Source: Bacteroidales bacterium
GTDB taxonomy: Bacteria > Bacteroidota > Bacteroidia > Bacteroidales > F082
Reading direction: 5' to 3'
NCBI GenBank assembly: GCA_017645275.1
Contig: JAGCPH010000021.1
Coordinates: 1-64,000 of the forward strand
DNA length: 64,000 nucleotides
How positions within the stretch are numbered: the first letter of the stretch is position 1; each line of letters begins with the position of its first letter. The position numbers and the translations under genes are program-made. This document shows, in pieces, positions 12,949 to 29,752 of this stretch. The notes under the pieces were generated by a model. The model made no database searches. It saw nothing but the letters and a program-made list of their open reading frames with translations, and had not been told where the DNA came from.

Positions 12949-13739
12949 TATCTTTTATTTTTATTATTTTTCGTGCAAACCACTTGATTTTCAAAGTTAA
13001 AATTGATCTGTTTATAGTTTTTAAGCTCTTCAGAGCCTTGCATTTTCTCCAAAAAATACTTCATATTCATCAATTTGACATCGACATTTTTGTCGTTTCC
13101 CAATATAACTTTCAAATCGACGTTGTTCAAAACCAGCTCATAATTCTTGTTGTCATAATACACCTGCTTCACACAAACCTTTGAATATGAATTATTTAAC
13201 ACTTTTTTCATGACATTGAACATCTTCGGCAAATCACTTGAAGCGTAATATATGTCGGCGATGTTGGCTCGACGGTTTTTCAATGCCTTGAAATTCAAAT
13301 TTCCGCTACCAATCAACAGATGCGGAGTGTAAATTGCGCTTTCTGGGAAGATATTACCGTTTTCGTCAAGATATACCGACTGTCCGTCTCTATTGTAAAC
13401 ACGCATATAAGGCTGACACTCAACGATTTTTACTTTCAAAACCTCATCAAAAGTCATGACTGCATCGGTGTAAACAGCCCACGGAATAGTTGCGATGTAG
13501 TTTCTTACGCTGTCGACTGGAATCATAGTGGCGAGGTTGTTGTGAATGGTATCGCATATGCGCATAATCGACTGATAAACAGCGACTTTGTCGATAAAAC
13601 CTGTTTCGTTCGGGCGCACGACGGTAAGTTCCACATGATGCAGAGGACGCTCCACGTGCTCTTTGTGGGTGAAAAACCACAAGCACCCAATCGCTCCGAT
13701 TGTGATGACAAGCACTAATATTTGCAAAAACTTCCTCAT
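12948..13739 (-). CDS. ftsQ: Cell division protein FtsQ/DivIB
   Basis: Single-pass inner-membrane protein of the FtsQLB complex. A short cytoplasmic N-terminus is followed by one membrane segment (FLQILVLVITIGAIGCLWFF), a POTRA-like region starting near VELTVVRPNETGFIDK, and a beta domain ending about residue 245. Sequence conservation of this family is low, so the call rests mainly on topology, size (263 residues) and the position between murC and ftsA. Its ATG overlaps the murC... unit as ATGA at 13736-13739, that is, with the stop of murC upstream. Confidence 0.88.
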   Translation of the reverse strand: MRKFLQILVLVITIGAIGCLWFFTHKEHVERPLHHVELTVVRPNETGFIDKVAVYQSIMRICDTIHNNLATMIPVDSVRNYIATIPWAVYTDAVMTFDEVLKVKIVECQPYMRVYNRDGQSVYLDENGNIFPESAIYTPHLLIGSGNLNFKALKNRRANIADIYYASSDLPKMFNVMKKVLNNSYSKVCVKQVYYDNKNYELVLNNVDLKVILGNDKNVDVKLMNMKYFLEKMQGSEELKNYKQINFNFENQVVCTKNNKNKR

Positions 13740-15097
13740 TGTGCCAACATTTTTTCAATTTGCGGGACAAAACGGTCGATGTCGCCTGCCCCGACAGTCA
13801 TAATCAACTCAGGATCAATGCCTTTTATTGTTTCGAGAAGCTCTTCTTTACTACAGAGCATCTTGTTTTTCGATGTTATTTTATCCAGCAATGCCGCTGA
13901 TGTCACGCCCTCTATTGGGAGTTCGCGCGCTGGATAGATGTCGAGCAATATCACTCGGTCGGCCAACGAGAGACTCTCAGCGAAACCGTCCATAAAATCA
14001 CGTGTGCGAGTGAACAAATGTGGCTGAAACACCACCGTCAACTCCTTGTCACTAAACACCTTACGAGCTGCCGACAATGCCGCTTTGATCTCCTCAGGAT
14101 GATGCGCGTAGTCGTCGATATAGATGTGTTTTGCATCTTTAACACGGATGTCAAAACGACGCTGCACACCTTTGAATGTCGCCAAGCCCATGCGTATATC
14201 TTCTTCATTTACACCGAGATACGTGCAGACGATGATGGCGGCAAGGGCATTTTGGACGTTATGGTTGCCGTAAAGGGACATTTTTAACTCACGCAGATCT
14301 CGCAGAGAACGCAGATTATTATCTTCCCAACAACCATCCACTGCGATTTTAATGGTGAAACAAGTTTCACCTTGATTTACGCAGATTTTTTCAGCAACAA
14401 CATCAGCGTTTTCAAGGCCGTAAGTGACGTGTTTCTTGTCAGTTTTTATCGGCAGGTCGGCGTGATAAACCACCAGTCCGTTGTCGCTAGTCTTGTTCAC
14501 AAACTCGTTGAAGCTGTCCACAACGTGTTGATAATCACCGTATATATCGAGGTGGTCGGCATCGATTGATGTCACCACGCTGACGTAAGGCGAGAGCTGA
14601 AGGAACGAGTGGTCGAACTCGTCGGCCTCCATAACCACGCATTCGTCGTGGGCGTCGCCGATCACCACATTACTGTCGATATTGCGTGCTATTCCCCCGA
14701 TGAACGCTGAAAGTTTCTTACCAGCTGTCATCAGGATATGTGTCACAAGGGCTGTCGTGGTGGTTTTACCGTGCGTGCCCCCGATAGCGATGCTGTTGTG
14801 TTGTCTCGACAACATGCCAAGCACCTCCGCCCTCTTCACAATCTTCACGTTTTTGTCACGCAAATAATTGAGTTCCTTAGAGTTAGCAGGGATTGCAGGT
14901 GTCAGCACGCAGAATTCGATATTCTCTGGAATCATGGCGGGGTCGTCCACATAATGCACGCTGATGCCTTCACTCTCAAGGCGTTGCGTAAGTGGCGACT
15001 GGGTACGGTCATAGCCGGCCACCTCGTAGCCGTTAGCTTTGAAGTACCTTGCCAAGGCACTCATGCCGATACCACCGATTCCTAAGAAATACACCAT
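13736..15097 (-). CDS. murC: UDP-N-acetylmuramate--L-alanine ligase
   Basis: Cytoplasmic ATP-dependent ligase adding the first residue of the peptidoglycan stem peptide. The N-terminal Rossmann-like domain begins FLGIGGIGMSALARYFK, the ATP loop is GGTHGKTTTTALVTH (about residue 107), the MurC-type EADEFDHSFL motif follows near residue 157, and the C-terminal domain has DDYAHHPEEIKA (about residue 328). All key motifs are intact, in contrast to the murD-like gene upstream. Length 453 is normal. It overlaps murG by 16 bases. Confidence 0.97.
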   Translation of the reverse strand: MVYFLGIGGIGMSALARYFKANGYEVAGYDRTQSPLTQRLESEGISVHYVDDPAMIPENIEFCVLTPAIPANSKELNYLRDKNVKIVKRAEVLGMLSRQHNSIAIGGTHGKTTTTALVTHILMTAGKKLSAFIGGIARNIDSNVVIGDAHDECVVMEADEFDHSFLQLSPYVSVVTSIDADHLDIYGDYQHVVDSFNEFVNKTSDNGLVVYHADLPIKTDKKHVTYGLENADVVAEKICVNQGETCFTIKIAVDGCWEDNNLRSLRDLRELKMSLYGNHNVQNALAAIIVCTYLGVNEEDIRMGLATFKGVQRRFDIRVKDAKHIYIDDYAHHPEEIKAALSAARKVFSDKELTVVFQPHLFTRTRDFMDGFAESLSLADRVILLDIYPARELPIEGVTSAALLDKITSKNKMLCSKEELLETIKGIDPELIMTVGAGDIDRFVPQIEKMLAQ

Positions 15098-16209
15098 ACC
15101 TTATCTAATTCATTTACAATGTCTTCCGCCGCATTTGGTCTTGCAAACTTAGCGATATTTTCCTGCATCTTGCAGATTTTTTCTTTATCATTCAGCAACT
15201 CAAACACAGTCGGGATGAGTTTCTCGGATGTCTCGTCGTTTTTCACAATCATGGCAGCGTCTTTTTCGACCAGACTCATCGCATTCTTAGTCTGATGGTC
15301 CTCTGCTGCTGTCGGAAGTGGCACAAAAACCACGGCTTTCCCGACAAGCGAGAGCTCCGAAATCGACATGGCGCCTGCACGTGAGATGACGACATCGGCA
15401 CTTGCGTAAGCAAGATCCATACGGTCGATGAAGACCACAGGTTTCACCCTCTCGCCAAGACCGAGCTCGTCGACTTCTTTCTGTGCCTGCTCGACATAAA
15501 ACTTGCCAGTCTGCCAAATCATCTGATAATCCACATCTTTAAACATAGCAAGCTTTGCTGAGATGCCTTTGTTGATGCCTAGAGCGCCCTGGCTGCCGCC
15601 CACCAACAGGATTATCGGCTTCTGCGGATCCAGTCCGAAGAAATGTGCGCCTTCGTCATGTTTGCCTTCTGTTGAAACCACGTTGTTTCTCAATGGGTTA
15701 CCTGTCAAGACAATCTTATCTTTCGGGAACCATTTCTCCATGTTTTCGTATGCCACACAGATCCTCGCAGCCTTTGGAGCCACTATCTTGTTTGTGACAC
15801 CCGGAAACGAGTTCTGTTCCTGAATCACCACCGGGATATGAAGCTTTGTAGCCTTACGCATGATTGGTCCCGAAGCGAATCCGCCAACGCCAACCACCAT
15901 GTCGGGTTTAAACTTCTTCAATATCTTTTTAGCCTTGCATAGGCTGCTTATCAGCTTAAACGGGAAGCTCAGGTTGTCGAGCGAGAGCTCACGTTTGAAT
16001 CCGCTAATCCACAGTCCTTCAATAGGATAGCCAGCCTTAGGCACGCGTTCCATCTCCATCTTTCCCTTTGCGCCCACGAAGAGTATCTCGGCGTCGGGAT
16101 GACGGCGTTTGAAGGCATCGGCGATGGCTATGGCCGGGAATATGTGTCCGCCCGTGCCGCCTCCGCTAACTATCAGCCTCGGTGATTTCGACTTCTGAGT
16201 TGTTTCCAT
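15082..16209 (-). CDS. murG: Undecaprenyldiphospho-muramoylpentapeptide beta-N-acetylglucosaminyltransferase
   Basis: GT28 glycosyltransferase converting lipid I to lipid II on the cytoplasmic face of the membrane. N-terminal glycine loop VSGGGTGGHIFPAIAIA (about residue 14), second loop VGVGGFASGP, and the UDP-GlcNAc site ISRAGAMSISEL with the downstream FVPLPTAAEDHQTKNA (about residue 290) are all present. The ATG at 16209 lies 44 bases inside ftsW; no later start would preserve the first glycine loop, so this long overlap appears genuine and suggests coupled translation. Confidence 0.96.
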   Translation of the reverse strand: METTQKSKSPRLIVSGGGTGGHIFPAIAIADAFKRRHPDAEILFVGAKGKMEMERVPKAGYPIEGLWISGFKRELSLDNLSFPFKLISSLCKAKKILKKFKPDMVVGVGGFASGPIMRKATKLHIPVVIQEQNSFPGVTNKIVAPKAARICVAYENMEKWFPKDKIVLTGNPLRNNVVSTEGKHDEGAHFFGLDPQKPIILLVGGSQGALGINKGISAKLAMFKDVDYQMIWQTGKFYVEQAQKEVDELGLGERVKPVVFIDRMDLAYASADVVISRAGAMSISELSLVGKAVVFVPLPTAAEDHQTKNAMSLVEKDAAMIVKNDETSEKLIPTVFELLNDKEKICKMQENIAKFARPNAAEDIVNELDKVWCIS

Positions 16210-17404
16210 CGTTGAAATTTGTATTTTTAAAATTGATTTCTCTAGTCACACTGATAATTATTCCTATCGCTAATCCTGTGAACGCCAGCGAGGTTCCGCC
16301 ACGGCTCACCAGCGGCATCGGCTGTCCGGTAACAGGCAACAAGCCCACTGCCACTCCCATATTTACAAGCGCCTGCATCACGATGCTGAATGCCAGTCCA
16401 AATGCCAACATCGCACCAAACGACTGCGGAGCACGTATCATCAGCAACGTCGCGCGGTACAGCAAAATAAGGTACAGCAGCAGTACGAAAACACCGCCCA
16501 CCAAACCGTATTCCTCTATAATGATGGCGTAGATGAAGTCAGAATAAGGGTGCGGCAAGATGGTGCGTTGCGTGCTCTTACCTGGCATCTTTCCAAAGAT
16601 ACCGCCACCAGCAATGGCGATCTTCGACTGCGTGATCTGGAAGTTCTTATCCTCGTTCTTCTCAGGGTCCTCATCTTCCTTCCCGACGAAACGTTCAATA
16701 CGGTTCACCCACGTCATGCTTCGGTTCATCTTGCTCGGGTCGTTTTCCATCACCTTTAACAGGATAAGAACTGCCAAAGCACCAACAACGACTATCGTTC
16801 CGATGAATCCGAAGATATATTTCATCTTGATTTTTCCTAAAAACATCATCACTATGCAGGTAGCGAAAAGCATAGCCGCCGTTGAGAAGTTTTCACGGAA
16901 AATGAGTCCCACAACCGCCAAAATCGGCACCATCACAAGCCAAAAGAGGTCTTTCAGATTGCCAAGACGGTCGCGATATAGCGTCAAAACTCGGGCAAGC
17001 ATGCCTATCAACGCCACCTTGGCGAGGTCGGAGGTCTGGAAAGTGACAACTCCGAGACTGATGACACGGCTTGCGTTGTTAAGATTTTGTCCGAACAAAA
17101 GGGTATAAAGCAGAAGCGGTATCGAAGCCCAGAACAGCAACGGCATAATCTTGGCATAGCGGCGGTATTTGATGTTCGCCGCGATGAGCAAGGCCACCAG
17201 ACCGAGACCCAACATACCCAGATGCTTCATCAAGACCTTGGTGTTGTTGTCGTGATATGCCCTGTAAGCCAACGAATCCGACGAGGTGTAGACCACCAAC
17301 ATGGAGATCAAGGCGAGAAACACCACGATCATCCAGATGACCTTGTCGCCTCTGAACAGATCCTTGACTTTTGCCGAAACCACCTCTTTTGTTATCATAT
17401 TCAA
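16166..17404 (-). CDS. ftsW: Lipid II polymerase / cell division protein FtsW (SEDS family)
   Basis: Integral membrane glycosyltransferase of the SEDS family that polymerises lipid II at the septum with its partner FtsI. About ten hydrophobic segments are visible; the motif NNASRVISLGVVTFQTSDLAK (shown in part) with its K in the first half is the SEDS signature, and HPYSDFIYAIIIEEYGLVGG and the later GLLPVTGQPMPLVSRGGTS are the conserved loops of the second half. Choice of FtsW over RodA rests on its place between murD and murG. The start codon directly abuts the stop of the murD-like gene. Confidence 0.95.
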   Translation of the reverse strand: MNMITKEVVSAKVKDLFRGDKVIWMIVVFLALISMLVVYTSSDSLAYRAYHDNNTKVLMKHLGMLGLGLVALLIAANIKYRRYAKIMPLLFWASIPLLLYTLLFGQNLNNASRVISLGVVTFQTSDLAKVALIGMLARVLTLYRDRLGNLKDLFWLVMVPILAVVGLIFRENFSTAAMLFATCIVMMFLGKIKMKYIFGFIGTIVVVGALAVLILLKVMENDPSKMNRSMTWVNRIERFVGKEDEDPEKNEDKNFQITQSKIAIAGGGIFGKMPGKSTQRTILPHPYSDFIYAIIIEEYGLVGGVFVLLLYLILLYRATLLMIRAPQSFGAMLAFGLAFSIVMQALVNMGVAVGLLPVTGQPMPLVSRGGTSLAFTGLAIGIIISVTREINFKNTNFNDGNNSEVEITEADS

Positions 17405-17938
17405 TTATTTCACAGTTTTTACAAAGACACGTCCCATCTTCATGGCGTCGAGGCCTTCAATTTCTGCACCTGGTGAGAAGATGACGCTGTCGCCTGCCAC
17501 CGCCTTATTCATAGCCATGAGTATAGCTTCTTCTATGCTGTCGGCACGCATGATACCATCGCGCACGAGGCATCCCAAGGCGTTTTTAATCTGGTCGGTA
17601 TTTCTGCCGATGCAGATTATCGCTTTCACATGCTGACGCACCACCGAGATCATGTCCTCGTAGTCATCGTTGCCAGCAAAAGTAATCCACACTGCCTGTC
17701 CATTCAGGTTTTCAAGCGAGAACCAAGTAGCCGAGAGACTGTGAGCAGCGCAGTCGTTGACATAACTCACACCATTGCGCACCGTCACCAGCTCGTTGCG
17801 GTTTTTGATGCGCTCGCAGTCCACAAAACTGTTGCGTAAAGTCTCGCTGCGTGCATGGCAGATGCTCTCGTTGATGGTGAATGCCGTGGTGAAAATCTCT
17901 TTTCTTCTACCTTGTTTAGCCAACTGTTCTAATGTCAT
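17405..17938 (-). CDS. MurD-like protein reduced to the C-terminal Mur-ligase domain
   Basis: A 177-residue ORF exactly where murD lies in the dcw cluster (mraY-murD-ftsW). It aligns by eye only with the last part of MurD: LRNSFVDCERIK corresponds to the LxxFxxxEHRLE region, then GVSYVNDCAAHSLSATWFSL to GVxYINDSKATNxxSTWYAL, KAIICIGRN to KAxVxLGxN, and GDSVIFSPGAEIEG to GDxVLLSPxCASFD. The UDP-binding and ATPase domains (about 260 residues) are absent, and only 30 bases separate it from mraY, so no hidden fragment remains. The ligand motifs are changed: DSKATN is DCAAHS, GGxDKGND is AGNDDYED, SPxCASFD is SPGAEIEG. It cannot be a working D-glutamate ligase by itself. It is an intact frame tightly packed in the operon, so it is either a relic under decay or a retained domain with another role. 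Confidence 0.8.
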   Translation of the reverse strand: MTLEQLAKQGRRKEIFTTAFTINESICHARSETLRNSFVDCERIKNRNELVTVRNGVSYVNDCAAHSLSATWFSLENLNGQAVWITFAGNDDYEDMISVVRQHVKAIICIGRNTDQIKNALGCLVRDGIMRADSIEEAILMAMNKAVAGDSVIFSPGAEIEGLDAMKMGRVFVKTVK

Positions 17939-17968
17939 AATTACTTGTTTTATATGCTGTTAAAAAAC

Positions 17969-19249
17969 TTATCTTATCTTCAAAGTCAAAATTGCGATAG
18001 CCACCAAAATAATCGTCACAATCCAAAACCTGATGGTGATCTTCACCTCGTGATACAGGTTTTTTGGACCTTTATGAATCACCGTGGTGGTCGGATCAAG
18101 AGCGAGGACCTGGTCCATCGAGGTACGGAAATGGTCGTGGATAGGGGTGCGTTTCCACACTCTGCGATGCACTCCTTTTTTCTTTCCAGTCCTGAAATAG
18201 AACCTCTGGATGATGACTGAGCCGCTCTCTATTAGGAAGATGCCGCACATGATAGGCAGCAAAAGCTCTTTGTGGATGATGATTGCCGACACCGCGATGA
18301 TACCGCCGATGGTCAAGCTGCCTGTGTCGCCCATGAATACCTGTGCCGGGAATGAGTTGAACCACAGGAAGCCAATCAACGCACCGACAAAAGCAGCCAA
18401 AAACACAGCAACCTCCTCACTACCAGGGATATACATAATGTCCAGATAACCAGATAGCACCGCGTTACTAGAGAGATAGGCCAGAATACCTATGCCCAGA
18501 CCGATAATCGCGGAGTTACCCGCCGCCATGCCGTCCATGCCGTCGTTAAGGTTCGAGCCGTTCGAGACAGCTGCCACAACAAACACCGTCAAAGCGACGA
18601 AAAATATCCATCCGGCCCAGTATTTGTAAGGCTCGCCCATAAAATCGAACAAATTCGCATAGTTCAAGTTATGATTCTTTAAAAATGGTATCGTGGTTCT
18701 CGTCGACTTCACGTCAGGCGATTTGATGACGACCTCTTTATTGTCTTCAATCTTTACCTTAACATTCTCATTCATAACCACTTGCGGACTAAAACGCAGT
18801 GTCAGACCGACAATCAGGCCGAGCATCACCTGTCCAATGATCTTATACCAGCCGTTGAGACCGTCTTTTTTCTTCTTGAAAGTCTTAATATAATCGTCGG
18901 CGAAGCCTATTCCGCCAAGGATTATGGTGGTGATGAGCATCAAAATCATGTAGATGTTCGTGATCTTGCCGAAAAGCAGACATGGCACCAAAATGGAGGC
19001 GATGATGATGAGGCCGCCCATCGTCGGGACGCCTTTCTTACCAACGTTAAACGGGTCAATCTTGGCATCACGCTGTGTCTCAGAGATGTTGCGTCGTTTC
19101 ATCAAATCGATGAAAAAATTACCGAACCACACTGAAATCACCAGCGACACGATGATGGCGATGATGGCACGCACTGTGACGTACTCGAGCACACCAGCGC
19201 CCGGCAAATCGAATTTCAAACTCAGATATCTCCAGAAATAGTATAACAT
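17969..19249 (-). CDS. mraY: Phospho-N-acetylmuramoyl-pentapeptide transferase
   Basis: Integral membrane enzyme attaching phospho-MurNAc-pentapeptide to undecaprenyl phosphate (lipid I synthesis). Catalytic motifs are intact: FADDYIKTFKKKKDGLNGWYK (first Asp pair, about residue 115), NGSNLNDGMDGMAAG (about residue 225) and VFMGDTGSLTIGG (about residue 310), plus the HHR-type end region GVHRRVWKRTPIHDHF. At 426 residues it has the extra loop (about residues 160-200) usual for Bacteroidota enzymes. It lies 9 bases after murE. Confidence 0.97.
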   Translation of the reverse strand: MLYYFWRYLSLKFDLPGAGVLEYVTVRAIIAIIVSLVISVWFGNFFIDLMKRRNISETQRDAKIDPFNVGKKGVPTMGGLIIIASILVPCLLFGKITNIYMILMLITTIILGGIGFADDYIKTFKKKKDGLNGWYKIIGQVMLGLIVGLTLRFSPQVVMNENVKVKIEDNKEVVIKSPDVKSTRTTIPFLKNHNLNYANLFDFMGEPYKYWAGWIFFVALTVFVVAAVSNGSNLNDGMDGMAAGNSAIIGLGIGILAYLSSNAVLSGYLDIMYIPGSEEVAVFLAAFVGALIGFLWFNSFPAQVFMGDTGSLTIGGIIAVSAIIIHKELLLPIMCGIFLIESGSVIIQRFYFRTGKKKGVHRRVWKRTPIHDHFRTSMDQVLALDPTTTVIHKGPKNLYHEVKITIRFWIVTIILVAIAILTLKIR

Positions 19250-19258
19250 ATCTACCTC

Positions 19259-20674
19259 CTATTTTTCGTTAAAAGCATTTGCGAGTTCTTCCCTGTCGTC
19301 GAAATGGTGCTTCACACCTTTCACATCCTGATATGTCTCATGGCCCTTGCCAGCCACGAGTATGATGTCGCCTTTCTTTGCCAACGCCACCGCAGTGCGT
19401 ATAGCCTCACGACGGTCGGTGATGCACAACACTTTGTTGTAACACTCGCCAGGCACGCCAGCCTTCATCTGACTGATGATATCCTCCGGCTCCTCGAAAC
19501 GAGGGTTGTCGCTGGTGATGATGAGTCGGTCCGACAGCTTCACCGCTGCTGCAGCCATCTTCGGACGTTTGTCAGCGTCACGGTTGCCGCCTGCACCAGC
19601 CACGGTAATCAACGTCTCGTTGTGAGTGCGGATCTCATTAATGGTCGAGAGCACGTTCTCCAAGGCGTCTGGGGTATGTGCATAGTCGACAATGCCCACG
19701 ATGCCATCTTTCGATTTCACCATCTGGAAACGTCCCGACGCGCTGTGCAGCTTGCTCACCTCCTGCAAGACTTCGTCCTCAGGCATTCCAAGCAGTACGG
19801 CTGCACCGTAGATAGCCAACAGATTCGAGGCGTTGAAACGTCCTACAAGGTAAGTTGACACCGCTTTGCCGTTGACTTTCAGTTCCATGCCGTCGAAGTA
19901 GCTCTCCATCACGAGACCCTTGAAATCGGCGTCATGTTTTAATGAATATGTCTTCTTGACGGCCTTGGTGTTCTGCAACATCACCATGCCGTTCTTGTCG
20001 TCGAGGTTTGTCAAGGCAAATGCCGTTGCCGGAAGGTTGTCGAAAAATTTCTTCTTCGCATCACGGTAGTTTGCCAGTGTCTTATGATAATCGAGATGGT
20101 CTTGCGTCAGATTTGTAAAAATTCCTCCGTCGAAATGCAGTCCTGCGATGCGTTCCTGGTCGATAGAATGCGAGCTCACCTCCATGAAAGCGTATTCGCA
20201 GCCTGCCTCCACCATCTGGGCCAGCAACTCGTTGAGTTCCAGCTGGTCACCTGTGGTATGTGTCGATGGCACCACCTTCTTCCCGATGATGTTTTCTATC
20301 GTCGAGAGGAGTCCGCACACATAGCCGGCGTCAGTAAACAGGCGGTACAGCAGTGTCGCAATGGTCGTCTTGCCGTTGGTTCCCGTCACACCCACCAGAT
20401 GCAGCTTCTGTGAAGGGTTGCCGTAGTATTCCGAGGCGGCGAGGCCCAGTGCCTTGGCACTGTTTTCAACCATGAAATAACGTACACCGTTGGCCTGTTG
20501 CTCGGGCATCTGCTCGCAAACAATGGTCTTCGCGCCGTTCTCAATGGCCTTCGCAATGTAGTCATGACCGTCGACCTGTGTGCCGCGCACCGCGAAAAAC
20601 ACGCTGCCATCAGTGCATTTGCGTGAATCAAACTGCAAATCCTTTGCTGATTTTAATATTTCACCTATATTCAT
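19259..20674 (-). CDS. murE: UDP-MurNAc-L-Ala-D-Glu--meso-diaminopimelate ligase
   Basis: Cytoplasmic ligase adding the third stem residue. ATP loop VTGTNGKTTIATLLYRLF, carbamylated-Lys/Mg region EVSSHSIDQERI, and C-terminal SDNPRFEEPEDII: the DNPR motif marks meso-diaminopimelate-specific MurE, in line with dapD in this window. ATG 20674 is chosen because MNIGEILKSAKDLQFDSRK is the normal N-terminus; the longer reading adds residues encoded by the palindromic repeat region upstream. Even so, the first beta strands before DSRKC are about ten residues shorter than in typical MurE. Length 471. Confidence 0.95.
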   Translation of the reverse strand: MNIGEILKSAKDLQFDSRKCTDGSVFFAVRGTQVDGHDYIAKAIENGAKTIVCEQMPEQQANGVRYFMVENSAKALGLAASEYYGNPSQKLHLVGVTGTNGKTTIATLLYRLFTDAGYVCGLLSTIENIIGKKVVPSTHTTGDQLELNELLAQMVEAGCEYAFMEVSSHSIDQERIAGLHFDGGIFTNLTQDHLDYHKTLANYRDAKKKFFDNLPATAFALTNLDDKNGMVMLQNTKAVKKTYSLKHDADFKGLVMESYFDGMELKVNGKAVSTYLVGRFNASNLLAIYGAAVLLGMPEDEVLQEVSKLHSASGRFQMVKSKDGIVGIVDYAHTPDALENVLSTINEIRTHNETLITVAGAGGNRDADKRPKMAAAAVKLSDRLIITSDNPRFEEPEDIISQMKAGVPGECYNKVLCITDRREAIRTAVALAKKGDIILVAGKGHETYQDVKGVKHHFDDREELANAFNEK

Positions 20675-20694
20675 CTCAATAATATTTCTTATCC

Positions 20695-20724
20695 AGTACG
20701 GATAACGCATGCGTTATCCGTACT
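20695..20724. repeat. GCATGC-cored palindrome, copy 1 (ftsI-murE)
   Basis: A perfect 30-bp palindrome whose half is AGTACGGATAACGCA, centred on GCATGC. On the transcribed strand it begins within the ftsI stop codon (TAG at 20725-20723) and ends about 20 bases before the murE start. It belongs to the same family as the copies at 23238, 53000 and 53047. Confidence 0.85.
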
Positions 20725-27527: not shown

Positions 27528-27845
27528 TTACAGTACCGCCGCAATCTTGCGGATAGAGTTAAGTTTGGTTAAAAATGTTTTGTTTCGGCGAGCCGTTATC
27601 ATATCATAACGGGTCTGCATTGCCAACAACGGCTCCGCATCGATATCCAAAGCAGCGCTGATAAGCATTGCCATTTCGGTGTTCAACGCCCGTTTCCCGT
27701 TCAGAACCTCATTCAACTGGGTCGGTGACACGCCAATCTGTGTCGCCAAAGCCCTTTGTGAGATGCCGCGATATTCTATTTCATCCTTGATAATTTCTCC
27801 AGGATGAGTCGGGATGAACGGTTCATTTTCAGACAAAACCCTCAT
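27528..27845 (-). CDS. HigA-type XRE-family helix-turn-helix protein without adjacent toxin
   Basis: A 105-residue DNA-binding protein. PTHPGEIIKDEIEYRGISQ followed by RALATQIGVSPTQLNEVLNG is the characteristic HigA/VapI antitoxin signature with an XRE helix-turn-helix at about residues 25-60. No HigB-like gene lies on either side: upstream is a terminator and the VWA gene, downstream is dapD only 12 bases away. ATG 27845 follows a -7 box at 27866-27874; longer readings would begin upstream of the promoter. It is either an orphan antitoxin or a regulator that acts on its own operon with dapD. Confidence 0.85.
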   Translation of the reverse strand: MRVLSENEPFIPTHPGEIIKDEIEYRGISQRALATQIGVSPTQLNEVLNGKRALNTEMAMLISAALDIDAEPLLAMQTRYDMITARRNKTFLTKLNSIRKIAAVL

Positions 27846-27865
27846 ATTAAAACAAAATTTATGCT

Positions 27866-27874
27866 GCAAAGATA
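27866..27874 (-). promoter_or_regulatory. Promoter -7 box for the HigA-like gene and dapD
   Basis: The minus strand reads TATCTTTGC, 20 bases before ATG 27845. As no other promoter precedes dapD, it probably drives both genes. Confidence 0.6.
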
Positions 27875-27948
27875 TAAAAATTTTTGATATGTTCACAAAA
27901 AAGTGAATTAATTTTATATAATCTCGGAATCCAACTTCAGATTTGCAT

Positions 27949-27983
27949 AAAAAAAACGCCCTCCAACTGAAGCCAGAGGGCGT
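27949..27983 (-). terminator. Intrinsic terminator of the VWA gene
   Basis: On the minus strand ACGCCCTC (27983-27976) pairs with GAGGGCGT (27964-27957), followed by a run of eight T. Confidence 0.85.
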
Positions 27984-28006
27984 GAATTTATTAAAAAATG
28001 AAAAAA

Positions 28007-29752
28007 TCAAAATACGAATGAGAACATCACATAGAATGGACGGCCAACCTTCGCTGTGTAATCCGGATATTTGCTTACATTGTTCATTCTCATGCTTGTG
28101 CCAAGTGTAAGCTTCATGAATTTGTAAGCGACACCGCCTTTCAAATCCCAGTAAAAATAGAGTGATTTATAAATATCGGATTCTGTAAACGTCTCTCCAT
28201 AGCCATAATAAGAATCATAATATTCATATTTGACACTATGGTCAATACAGAAATCCAATGCGGGACCGGTAGCAGCAAAAACAGCGAATGTGCTCGGTGT
28301 TTCATAACGATATTGGAATTTTATCGGAGATAAGTACATATTAAAGCTTTTTGCTGTGGTTTTTAGATTTTCACCATAATAGTATTCACTGTCAGAACCA
28401 CGATAATATGCGAGACCCAAGTCACAGAATTCTATTCCGAGGCCGTATTTGAATGAATGATCCCACGATACGCCAAGATACAAACCTTTGGTGGTAGCGT
28501 CTTTCTTTCCCGCAAGCGAATATTTTTCTGTAAAACCATATCCTGATTCTTTTACATTCATAGTGGTCAGTCCGATATTAATGTTAAAACGGGTTTTGCT
28601 TTTTGTTTTGACAATAGGTTTCGGCTCAGGTTTTGGTTTGGGAGCTTGAGCATAACCAAGAGTCCAACGCACTCTTCCTTTATGGCTCGGTGGAACAAAA
28701 CAAATAAGATTATTCCATCTGTCAATAAGATTATTGGCAATATCTTCAAACATATACTGAAGTTCATTAAAATTCTTGGCAAGTTTAAAATGACTGTTAT
28801 CGGTTGATAATCCACGTAATACCTCTTCAAATTTACTGGCATTACTGCCAACGTCATTACCTTCAACAGCAATAACAAAACTTTCAATTGGCTTGCCTTT
28901 TAGTTTTTTAGTTATACATTTTTCTTTGACATATTTGTAATATGGATTCAAAATACCGTCTGCAGGCACGCCAATCTTTGGGTCTCTCGAATTATTATCA
29001 TATCCATCAGTAAATGTCACTATATAAGATCCATCATATTCAACATTATCTGGAAGATAAATTCCATTAACATAAGACTCCATCATATCAGTAGCTGTAT
29101 GCATTGCATAATACATGGCAGTTTGTTTGTCAATAGTTAATCTCCTAATAAAAGATTTCATTTCAGTATATGAATTTGATGTTAATTCAGTTATTGGATA
29201 CACCGTGTTTTTAGTATAAGTCATTGTGTTGAATCCAACAATACCAAGTCTTACATTACCATTACTTGATTTATTATAAATAGTTGTAATAAACTGCTCT
29301 GCATAAACTTTTAGTTTATCAAAATCATTTCCAAGCGAAGTACTGCAGTCAAGAACAAGCATAATTGTCATAACCTTGTTAGTACTTGAACCTAGTTGTC
29401 CATCCTTGGTTTCACTATCAATTTGCCACTTATTGTTATCATAATCCCATTTCCAGAACTTTAAGCCTCCGGCAAATTTGGTCGGATAATCCGTATCAGC
29501 ATGTTCAAATTCAAAAACAGCAAATTCATCGATTTCAGTTCCAATTTTCACATCTTCTTTTGTAAAAGTAATACCCTGTGATGTTATATTTTGCAACTTG
29601 TAAACAAATTTTCCGTTGACAGCTTCAACGCTATAATCACCTTCTATGTAATGTGTAGCATTTTCAGCCTGTTCACTAGTGTTTTGCGCTTTAGCACCGA
29701 ATGTCATAAATGAACAAGCAATGGTAAAAAGTAAAAAATTCTTGATACTCAT
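28007..29752 (-). CDS. Secreted von Willebrand factor A protein with C-terminal outer-membrane barrel-like region
   Basis: A 581-residue exported protein (signal peptide MSIKNFLLFTIACSFMTFGA...KA). A VWA domain starts near residue 128: IMLVLDCSTSLG is a complete MIDAS DxSxS motif, TMTYTKNTVYPITEL and the later SYIVTFTDGYDNNSRD (second MIDAS Asp) follow. After a Pro/Lys linker (PKPKPEPKPIVK, about residue 378) comes a C-terminal part of alternating aromatic strands (FNINIGLTTMNV ... KVGRPFYVMFSFVF) that ends in Phe, like outer-membrane beta barrels. Role unknown; by layout it could expose a metal-dependent adhesion domain at the surface. No convincing promoter lies just upstream, so it may be read from the promoter at 30103 through the structured RNA region. 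Confidence 0.75.
   Translation of the reverse strand: MSIKNFLLFTIACSFMTFGAKAQNTSEQAENATHYIEGDYSVEAVNGKFVYKLQNITSQGITFTKEDVKIGTEIDEFAVFEFEHADTDYPTKFAGGLKFWKWDYDNNKWQIDSETKDGQLGSSTNKVMTIMLVLDCSTSLGNDFDKLKVYAEQFITTIYNKSSNGNVRLGIVGFNTMTYTKNTVYPITELTSNSYTEMKSFIRRLTIDKQTAMYYAMHTATDMMESYVNGIYLPDNVEYDGSYIVTFTDGYDNNSRDPKIGVPADGILNPYYKYVKEKCITKKLKGKPIESFVIAVEGNDVGSNASKFEEVLRGLSTDNSHFKLAKNFNELQYMFEDIANNLIDRWNNLICFVPPSHKGRVRWTLGYAQAPKPKPEPKPIVKTKSKTRFNINIGLTTMNVKESGYGFTEKYSLAGKKDATTKGLYLGVSWDHSFKYGLGIEFCDLGLAYYRGSDSEYYYGENLKTTAKSFNMYLSPIKFQYRYETPSTFAVFAATGPALDFCIDHSVKYEYYDSYYGYGETFTESDIYKSLYFYWDLKGGVAYKFMKLTLGTSMRMNNVSKYPDYTAKVGRPFYVMFSFVF

Follow-up and report, generated by a model that had tools for sequence, protein, structure and literature searches.

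The window, the whole 64,000-nt stretch of DNA analysed here, carries on its reverse strand a dcw cluster in which the place of murD, between mraY and ftsW, is held by an ORF encoding only 177 aa (positions 17405..17938, from an ATG at 17938-17936 to a TAA at 17407-17405). When we compared its product with family models, it passed the gathering score of Pfam Mur_ligase_C (PF02875; 34.7 bits against 28.4, E 3.8e-8) but remained far below the equivalog cut-off of the NCBIfam murD model (TIGR01087; 63.6 bits against 211.95), matching model positions 291-419 of 441 only. We refer to this stand-alone C-terminal MurD domain as MurD-C. It resembles canonical MurD in being a homologous domain at the same dcw position, and differs from it in falling below the murD cut-off, in lacking the lysine that reads D-glutamate, and in architecture: of the three MurD domains (N-terminal, central ATP-binding and C-terminal), it holds only PF02875 and a tail of the central one. 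Indeed, its start codon (17936..17938) aligns with a conserved internal methionine of full-length MurD, and its first residues (MTLEQLAKQG, cf. MTLEELALQGRHN) also pair with the end of the central domain, as placed by what we take to be the boundary between the central and C-terminal domains, so the kept part is slightly longer than the C-domain. Since only 30 nt (17939..17968) separate the mraY stop from MurD-C, the missing approximately 260 codons cannot sit upstream of it. A profile built from members of the genus matches solved MurD chains (best E 2.9e-24), and from this homology MurD-C is predicted to have the fold of a Mur ligase C-domain.

Three ligand motifs of MurD are changed in the window protein. 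Where NDSKATN is expected we read NDCAAHS (residues 61-67; 17738..17758), with the aspartate kept as D62; AGNDDY (residues 88-93; 17660..17677) takes the place of GGxDKG, and SPGAEIEG (residues 155-162; 17453..17476) that of SPACASFD, of which only S-P is retained. According to the available part of one article, K348 of E. coli MurD is the lysine that reads D-glutamate (PMC8788868); no equivalent of it was found in the window MurD-C in the slot alignment.

The neighbouring genes lie on the same strand, and the four compared with family models are intact. MraY (17969..19249; TIGR00445, 247.0 bits, above cut-off) and FtsW (16166..17404; PF01098, 245.5 bits), whose start is only a few bases away from the stop of MurD-C, are full-length family matches, as are the three-domain Mur ligases MurE (19259..20710; NF001126, 611.8 bits) and MurC (13736..15097; TIGR01082, 409 bits); murG (15082..16209) was named by its position and by its use as murG query. 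An earlier, sequence-only reading of this DNA had described a C-terminal MurD domain of this length between mraY and ftsW, with these motif readings, without room for the missing residues and among otherwise intact dcw genes, and the coordinates, models and window sequence agree with it. Elsewhere in the window, a small protein (27528-28010, reverse strand) that adjoins a dapD-like gene looks by eye like a HigA-type antitoxin or a helix-turn-helix regulator.

MurD2, MurL and MurI in the window genome and the order

The window is part of contig C17 of a 2.0-Mb genome in 54 contigs that is 82% complete. When we searched this genome for a complete MurD, we found a full-length MurD-type gene (436 aa, 311 bits) on contig C52, where it overlaps the gene of a MurL homologue. 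The latter matches NF041275 with 254.7 bits (E 1.2e-75), below the equivalog cut-off of 700 of this model, which is named for Xanthomonadales. In the available part of the work on Xanthomonas oryzae, MurD2 adds L-glutamate, with a specificity set by E197 and R358, and MurL inverts it (PMC8788868). The C52 protein has both specificity residues, a glutamate in LNVFEEHLD (at the position of E. coli D182) and an arginine in GGFDREIDY (at that of K348), and is by prediction an L-glutamate ligase, MurD2. MurI was not found in this genome at its 82% completeness. Given the MurD2 residues, the adjoining MurL and the lack of a MurI match, the D-glutamate of the wall most likely comes from MurD2 and MurL, if both have the activities that their sequences suggest. 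The sequence-only reading was thus right that a ligase must be encoded elsewhere; it had expected a D-glutamate ligase, and what lies there is by sequence an L-glutamate ligase beside MurL.

We inspected 25 MurL loci (L040-L064), one of them from the window genome. MurD2 is adjacent to MurL or in the same frame at 24 of them, with the arginine at all 24 and the glutamate pattern at 22 (a script found no match in L044 and L063); for the 25th (G024), the genome has a MurD2-like match on a different contig. MurL was also seen in open frames of 885-996 aa, at L043, L051 and L061 (genomes G023, G018 and G020) and in G102:C12, G206:C6 and G130:C329. MurL and MurD2 map to one frame in the first three, which are genus members, and in G102 and G206 the frames of MurL and of the MurD2-like match are equally long; G130 is included by length only. 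These long frames suggest a fused epimerase-ligase. The arrangement is therefore like that of X. oryzae in its MurD2 with Glu and Arg, its overlapping MurL and the lack of a MurI match, and unlike it in being widespread in the order Bacteroidales and sometimes fused into one MurL-MurD2 frame; the available part of PMC8788868 lists MurL in proteobacteria and actinobacteria only. The literature that we searched, with partial coverage, held no description of a Bacteroidales MurD2-MurL or of a stand-alone MurD-C.

Across 247 genomes of the order, including the window's own, MurL (matches with E up to 1e-10) was present in 84 and absent from 163. MurI (TIGR00067) was above cut-off in none of the 82 MurL-positive genomes tested as opposed to 69 of the 76 MurL-negative ones, the seven exceptions being G022, G038, G075, G098, G141, G210 and G265; weak matches of 25-46 bits occurred in nine tested genomes. 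MurL and MurI are mutually exclusive in the genomes tested.

The murD slot in relatives, across the order and in other orders

Scanning named genomes with the profile of the genus, we recovered 72 loci whose titles read Bacteroidales, Bacteroidia or, in one case, Candidatus Limimorpha equi; ruminant hosts are named in many of these titles. Together with the window, the slot ORF is intact at 73/73 loci, with 176-189 codons (starts chosen by script). mraY was recovered in 69/73 loci (68 of the 72 besides the window), 3-125 nt before the slot ORF, and ftsW in all 73, its start lying from 23 nt inside to 28 nt after the end of MurD-C. Among 23 genus relatives, 20 have a slot match, and the three without one are genomes that are 62-72% complete. 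G022, a member of the same genus (L172; 97% complete), has the short slot gene with no match to full-length MurD and no convincing match to MurL (18.4 bits); a single MurL-MurD2 locus is possibly missing from its assembly.

We estimated dN/dS by the Nei-Gojobori method, with usable dS in 69/171 pairs of the window group and 549/1431 pairs of the rest of the genus. The slot gene has a median of 0.119 in the former and 0.235 in the latter, and its eight closest pairs span 0.018-0.093 and 0.037-0.188, respectively. These medians are above those of the neighbours (window group and rest of genus: mraY 0.076 and 0.077, ftsW 0.084 and 0.182, murG 0.057 and 0.118, murE 0.040 and 0.105), that is 0.119 against 0.040-0.084 and 0.235 against 0.077-0.182, and far below 1. 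MurD-C is under purifying selection. With every frame intact and dN/dS this low we reject a pseudogene or a decaying gene; of the two fates that had been offered for the domain, decay or a retained job, the first is not borne out and the second fits the intact ORFs and the selection acting on them.

We then scored the slot across the order, taking its state from the open frame of MurD-C matches and, for six genomes drawn from the class sample, the order sample or the doubtful cases, from DNA; the slot profile detects only forms that keep the C-domain and would miss an N-terminal remnant alone. Of the 84 MurL-positive genomes, 32 have a short slot gene and 44 a full-length dcw murD; in three a contig edge cuts off the slot (G118, G130, G183), three have no slot match (G043, G152, G259) and two have a MurD2-like match only (G100, on a contig that stops near murE, and G204, in which mraY does not come after murE and the dcw order seems changed). 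In the last two (L267 in G100 and L268 in G204, family f78), the MurD2-like gene lies off the MurL contig. The contig of G259 starts inside murG, and mraY is off the contig in G028. A C-domain match outside the MurD2 gene is present in 78 of the 84. The 163 MurL-negative genomes include one clear short slot (G038), six doubtful cases that are cut, split or frame-disrupted (G075, G178, G211, G234, G262, G265) and two without a match (G040, G194). Truncation thus accompanies MurL in 32 of 33 clear short-slot cases. In G038 (98% complete; G038:C4:295300-304300, L170), the slot frame is 212 aa long, with no match to MurI, MurL or full-length MurD. In G234 (L171, 3328-4784), about 700 nt lie between mraY and a 250-aa C-terminal frame, and the slot resembles a full murD with a disrupted frame more than a clean truncation. 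That the short gene might be limited to one genus is rejected by its recurrence across the order.

The 44 MurL-positive genomes that keep a full-length dcw MurD (for example L174, L179 and L180) have MurI over cut-off in none of those tested. We considered whether these MurDs had lost their catalytic motifs, an idea not borne out by the 34 of these genomes that were fetched, in which nearly all are intact: the P-loop, GxHN and DSKATN in 34/34, GGxDKG in 33/34 and SPACASFD in 31/34. Since the motifs remain intact even though MurI is gone, the whole enzyme, and not a C-terminal isoform alone, is apparently selected in those genomes. The whole MurD thus seems to be still useful there, judging by its motifs, and this counts against a pure isoform story.

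To place the truncations we used 80 fetched dcw regions, which had been chosen for clear short cases and for both MurL states and are not a random sample, in a quick LG+G4 tree of MurE, MraY, FtsW and MurG that has 81 rows and drew composition warnings (G234 not counted). Parsimony gives 15 changes of slot state on this tree, 16 if truncation is irreversible and 15 with unresolved forks merged, which implies, as far as such a tree can, that the dcw murD was truncated on about 15 occasions in the order. Short and full forms are sister rows at the starred forks G072/G182, G057/G171, G096/G200, G163/G049, G117/G219 and G028+G147/G245. Several truncated copies group in C-domain trees with full-length MurD from their own family, and a single old paralogue as the source of all stand-alone copies is not supported. 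With so few columns and such long branches, the C-domain tree does not allow the diverged copies, among them that of the window, to be placed.

Outside the order, the class sample comprises 139 genomes including the window's own, 135 of them from other orders, and the window genome is the only one with MurL. At least two MurD-C matches occur in 38 of the 138 other class genomes, all in other orders. The arrangement murD, MurD-C, ftsW is found on one contig in 36 of these 38 (in one of the 36, G340, a contig edge cuts into murD), with a separate MurD-C frame of 135-241 aa; of the two exceptions, in G272 the contig breaks off behind MurD-C, and in G310 murD is on one contig and MurD-C followed by ftsW on another. 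The tandem copies cluster together and not with the full MurD of their host, in a C-domain tree that is weakly resolved (G344 not included). As these genomes gave no MurL match, the idea of a stand-alone MurD-C occurring only with MurL was dropped. MurD-C is no oddity of a single genome: it recurs across Bacteroidales and, in further orders of the class, accompanies full murD as a gene in its own right.

A candidate nested start in full-length murD

The internal methionine with which the MurD-C start aligns (column 363 of the slot alignment) is Met in 50/53 full-length and 29/34 short forms, five short forms lacking it, and most tandem copies, judged by eye, have a later start. In a larger set it is present in 76/79 full-length murD genes (84 were given, and five without the anchor motif were left out). 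We scored the excess of A given the encoded amino acids in windows of six codons (137-141 windows). The strongest window starts at the internal Met in MurL-positive (32 genes, z 8.9) and MurL-negative Bacteroidales (11 genes, z 3.8) and begins three codons past it in other orders (33 genes, z 5.9), all z values being inflated by shared ancestry and codon choice varying along murD (window s.d. 2.8, peak 10.2). In two groups G depletion peaks at the internal Met or six codons upstream of it, and in MurL-negative Bacteroidales it peaks elsewhere. No A-excess peak was seen at the homologous site of MurE in the same genomes (rank 22/156, 70 genes) or of MurD2 (rank 45/132, 19 genes). With one gene per family, the excess is positive in 46/51 genes and in the top tenth of its own gene in 28/51, with a mean of 1.89 at the internal Met against -0.26 at 361 other Met codons; the MurE control and this per-family draw offset shared ancestry and codon variation only in part. 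The RNA is weakly structured at the internal Met (rank 4 of 80 positions, as opposed to 48 of 80 for the MurE site).

Among solved MurDs, that of Streptococcus agalactiae has Met at the position and others have a different hydrophobic residue, so the methionine may be structural and proves little alone. Taken with its codon context, it seems that full-length murD of this class carries an internal translation start here, giving a candidate C-terminal isoform, and an internal promoter for ftsW could give a similar signal. Bacterial N-terminal proteoforms reportedly arise from internal start codons, according to one study. The likeness lies in one gene yielding a full and a C-terminal product; the murD isoform differs in being predicted from sequence, and the C-terminal product here is a gene of its own on several branches.

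A proposed non-catalytic role for MurD-C

We propose, with a probability of about one half, that MurD-C is a stand-alone, non-catalytic adaptor kept by selection after catalysis moved to MurD2-MurL. With MurD2 adding L-Glu and MurL turning it into D-Glu, the old murD would have been freed from catalysis, and its C-domain would stay under selection as an adaptor at the MraY/MurG/FtsW site, where it would hold the docking place of MurD in the cytoplasmic Mur complex. In the available part of a study on Thermotoga, MurG binds MurD, MurE and MurF and is proposed as a scaffold (PMC6420597). Such a scaffold would offer a docking place for a non-catalytic MurD domain, and that part of the article differs from our case in describing no stand-alone Mur domain. 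With less confidence, we suggest that the adaptor function is older than the truncation, since an internal start seems to be present in full-length murD where most short forms begin; truncation would then merely have separated an isoform that already existed. More tentatively, and as something we would not yet bet on, the murD of Bacteroidia may be two genes in one, a ligase and a nested start giving a MurD-C that would be essential, without catalysis, next to FtsW. On takeover by MurD2-MurL the ligase half would have been deleted repeatedly in Bacteroidales and MurD-C retained, and in other orders the domain would have become a separate gene behind murD.

The residues that are kept and lost bear on what is selected. 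We counted them in 85 full-length, 34 truncated and 37 tandem forms. The D-Glu lysine is present in 84/85 full-length, 7/34 truncated and 6/37 tandem forms (13 of the 71 stand-alone ones); as it is mostly lost in both stand-alone kinds, D-Glu ligation is not what is selected. The Asp of NDSKATN is present in 85/85, 34/34 and 31/37, the Arg of HR in 85/85, 27/34 (the other seven having Lys) and 23/37, and the Glu two places beyond it in 85/85, 30/34 and 37/37, respectively. The alteration of the ligand motifs is lineage-specific, and few stand-alone copies keep the key lysine; the description of these motifs as altered holds for the window protein and not in general, some stand-alone copies of other families keeping DSKATN and SPACASFD. 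Polar residues in common with the other copies are few in the most diverged ones, and a function shared by all is therefore not certain.

The rival that survives best, itself unlikely, is a ligand sensor, in which MurD-C would keep its nucleotide-side residues and report levels of ATP, ADP or UDP-precursor to MraY or FtsW. The truncated forms invite it, all 34 having the Asp of DSKATN and an Arg or Lys at HR, which we take to be nucleotide contacts, with the D-Glu lysine in only seven. However, the tandem copies keep that Asp and Arg less strictly, and the phosphate-binding loop presumably lies in a domain missing from MurD-C. Next, and also improbable, the 3′ part of murD could be kept as a cis-element, for an ftsW promoter or translational coupling, with the protein unimportant; the abutment or overlap with ftsW at the 73 loci and the A-rich, weakly structured stretch inside murD speak for it. 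Selection on DNA only would not, however, leave a synonymous rate far above the amino-acid-changing rate, nor hydrophobic, Asp and Trp positions conserved at about 30% identity.

Slow decay is less likely again: murD would be eroding after the MurD2-MurL takeover, with the C-domain as a leftover, as the loss of ligand motifs to a varying degree among lineages and a dN/dS exceeding that of the neighbours might suggest. Against it stand the ORF that is intact at all 73 loci, a dN/dS far below 1, the C-domain match outside MurD2 in 78 of 84 MurL-positive genomes, and the separate MurD-C beside full murD in genomes without MurL. We consider it more doubtful still that MurD-C works as a subunit of one of the two replacement enzymes, MurD2 or MurL, and for instance completes or steers MurD2; truncation does go with MurL in all but one of the clear cases, but MurD2 has a C-domain of its own, and separate copies are found in a class sample where only the window genome has MurL. 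An assembly or sequencing deletion in this genome, the alternative named in the sequence-only reading, is dismissed by the same short ORF at 72 other loci, with ftsW beside all and mraY beside 68 of them.

If the adaptor reading is true, a Mur ligase would gain a second, non-enzymatic function, and a natural docking half of MurD would make the role of the cytoplasmic Mur enzymes in the division complex testable. With this survey, the MurD2-MurL route reaches about one in three of the genomes sampled from the order and excludes MurI there, which is relevant to drugs that target peptidoglycan and to metabolic models built from genomes.
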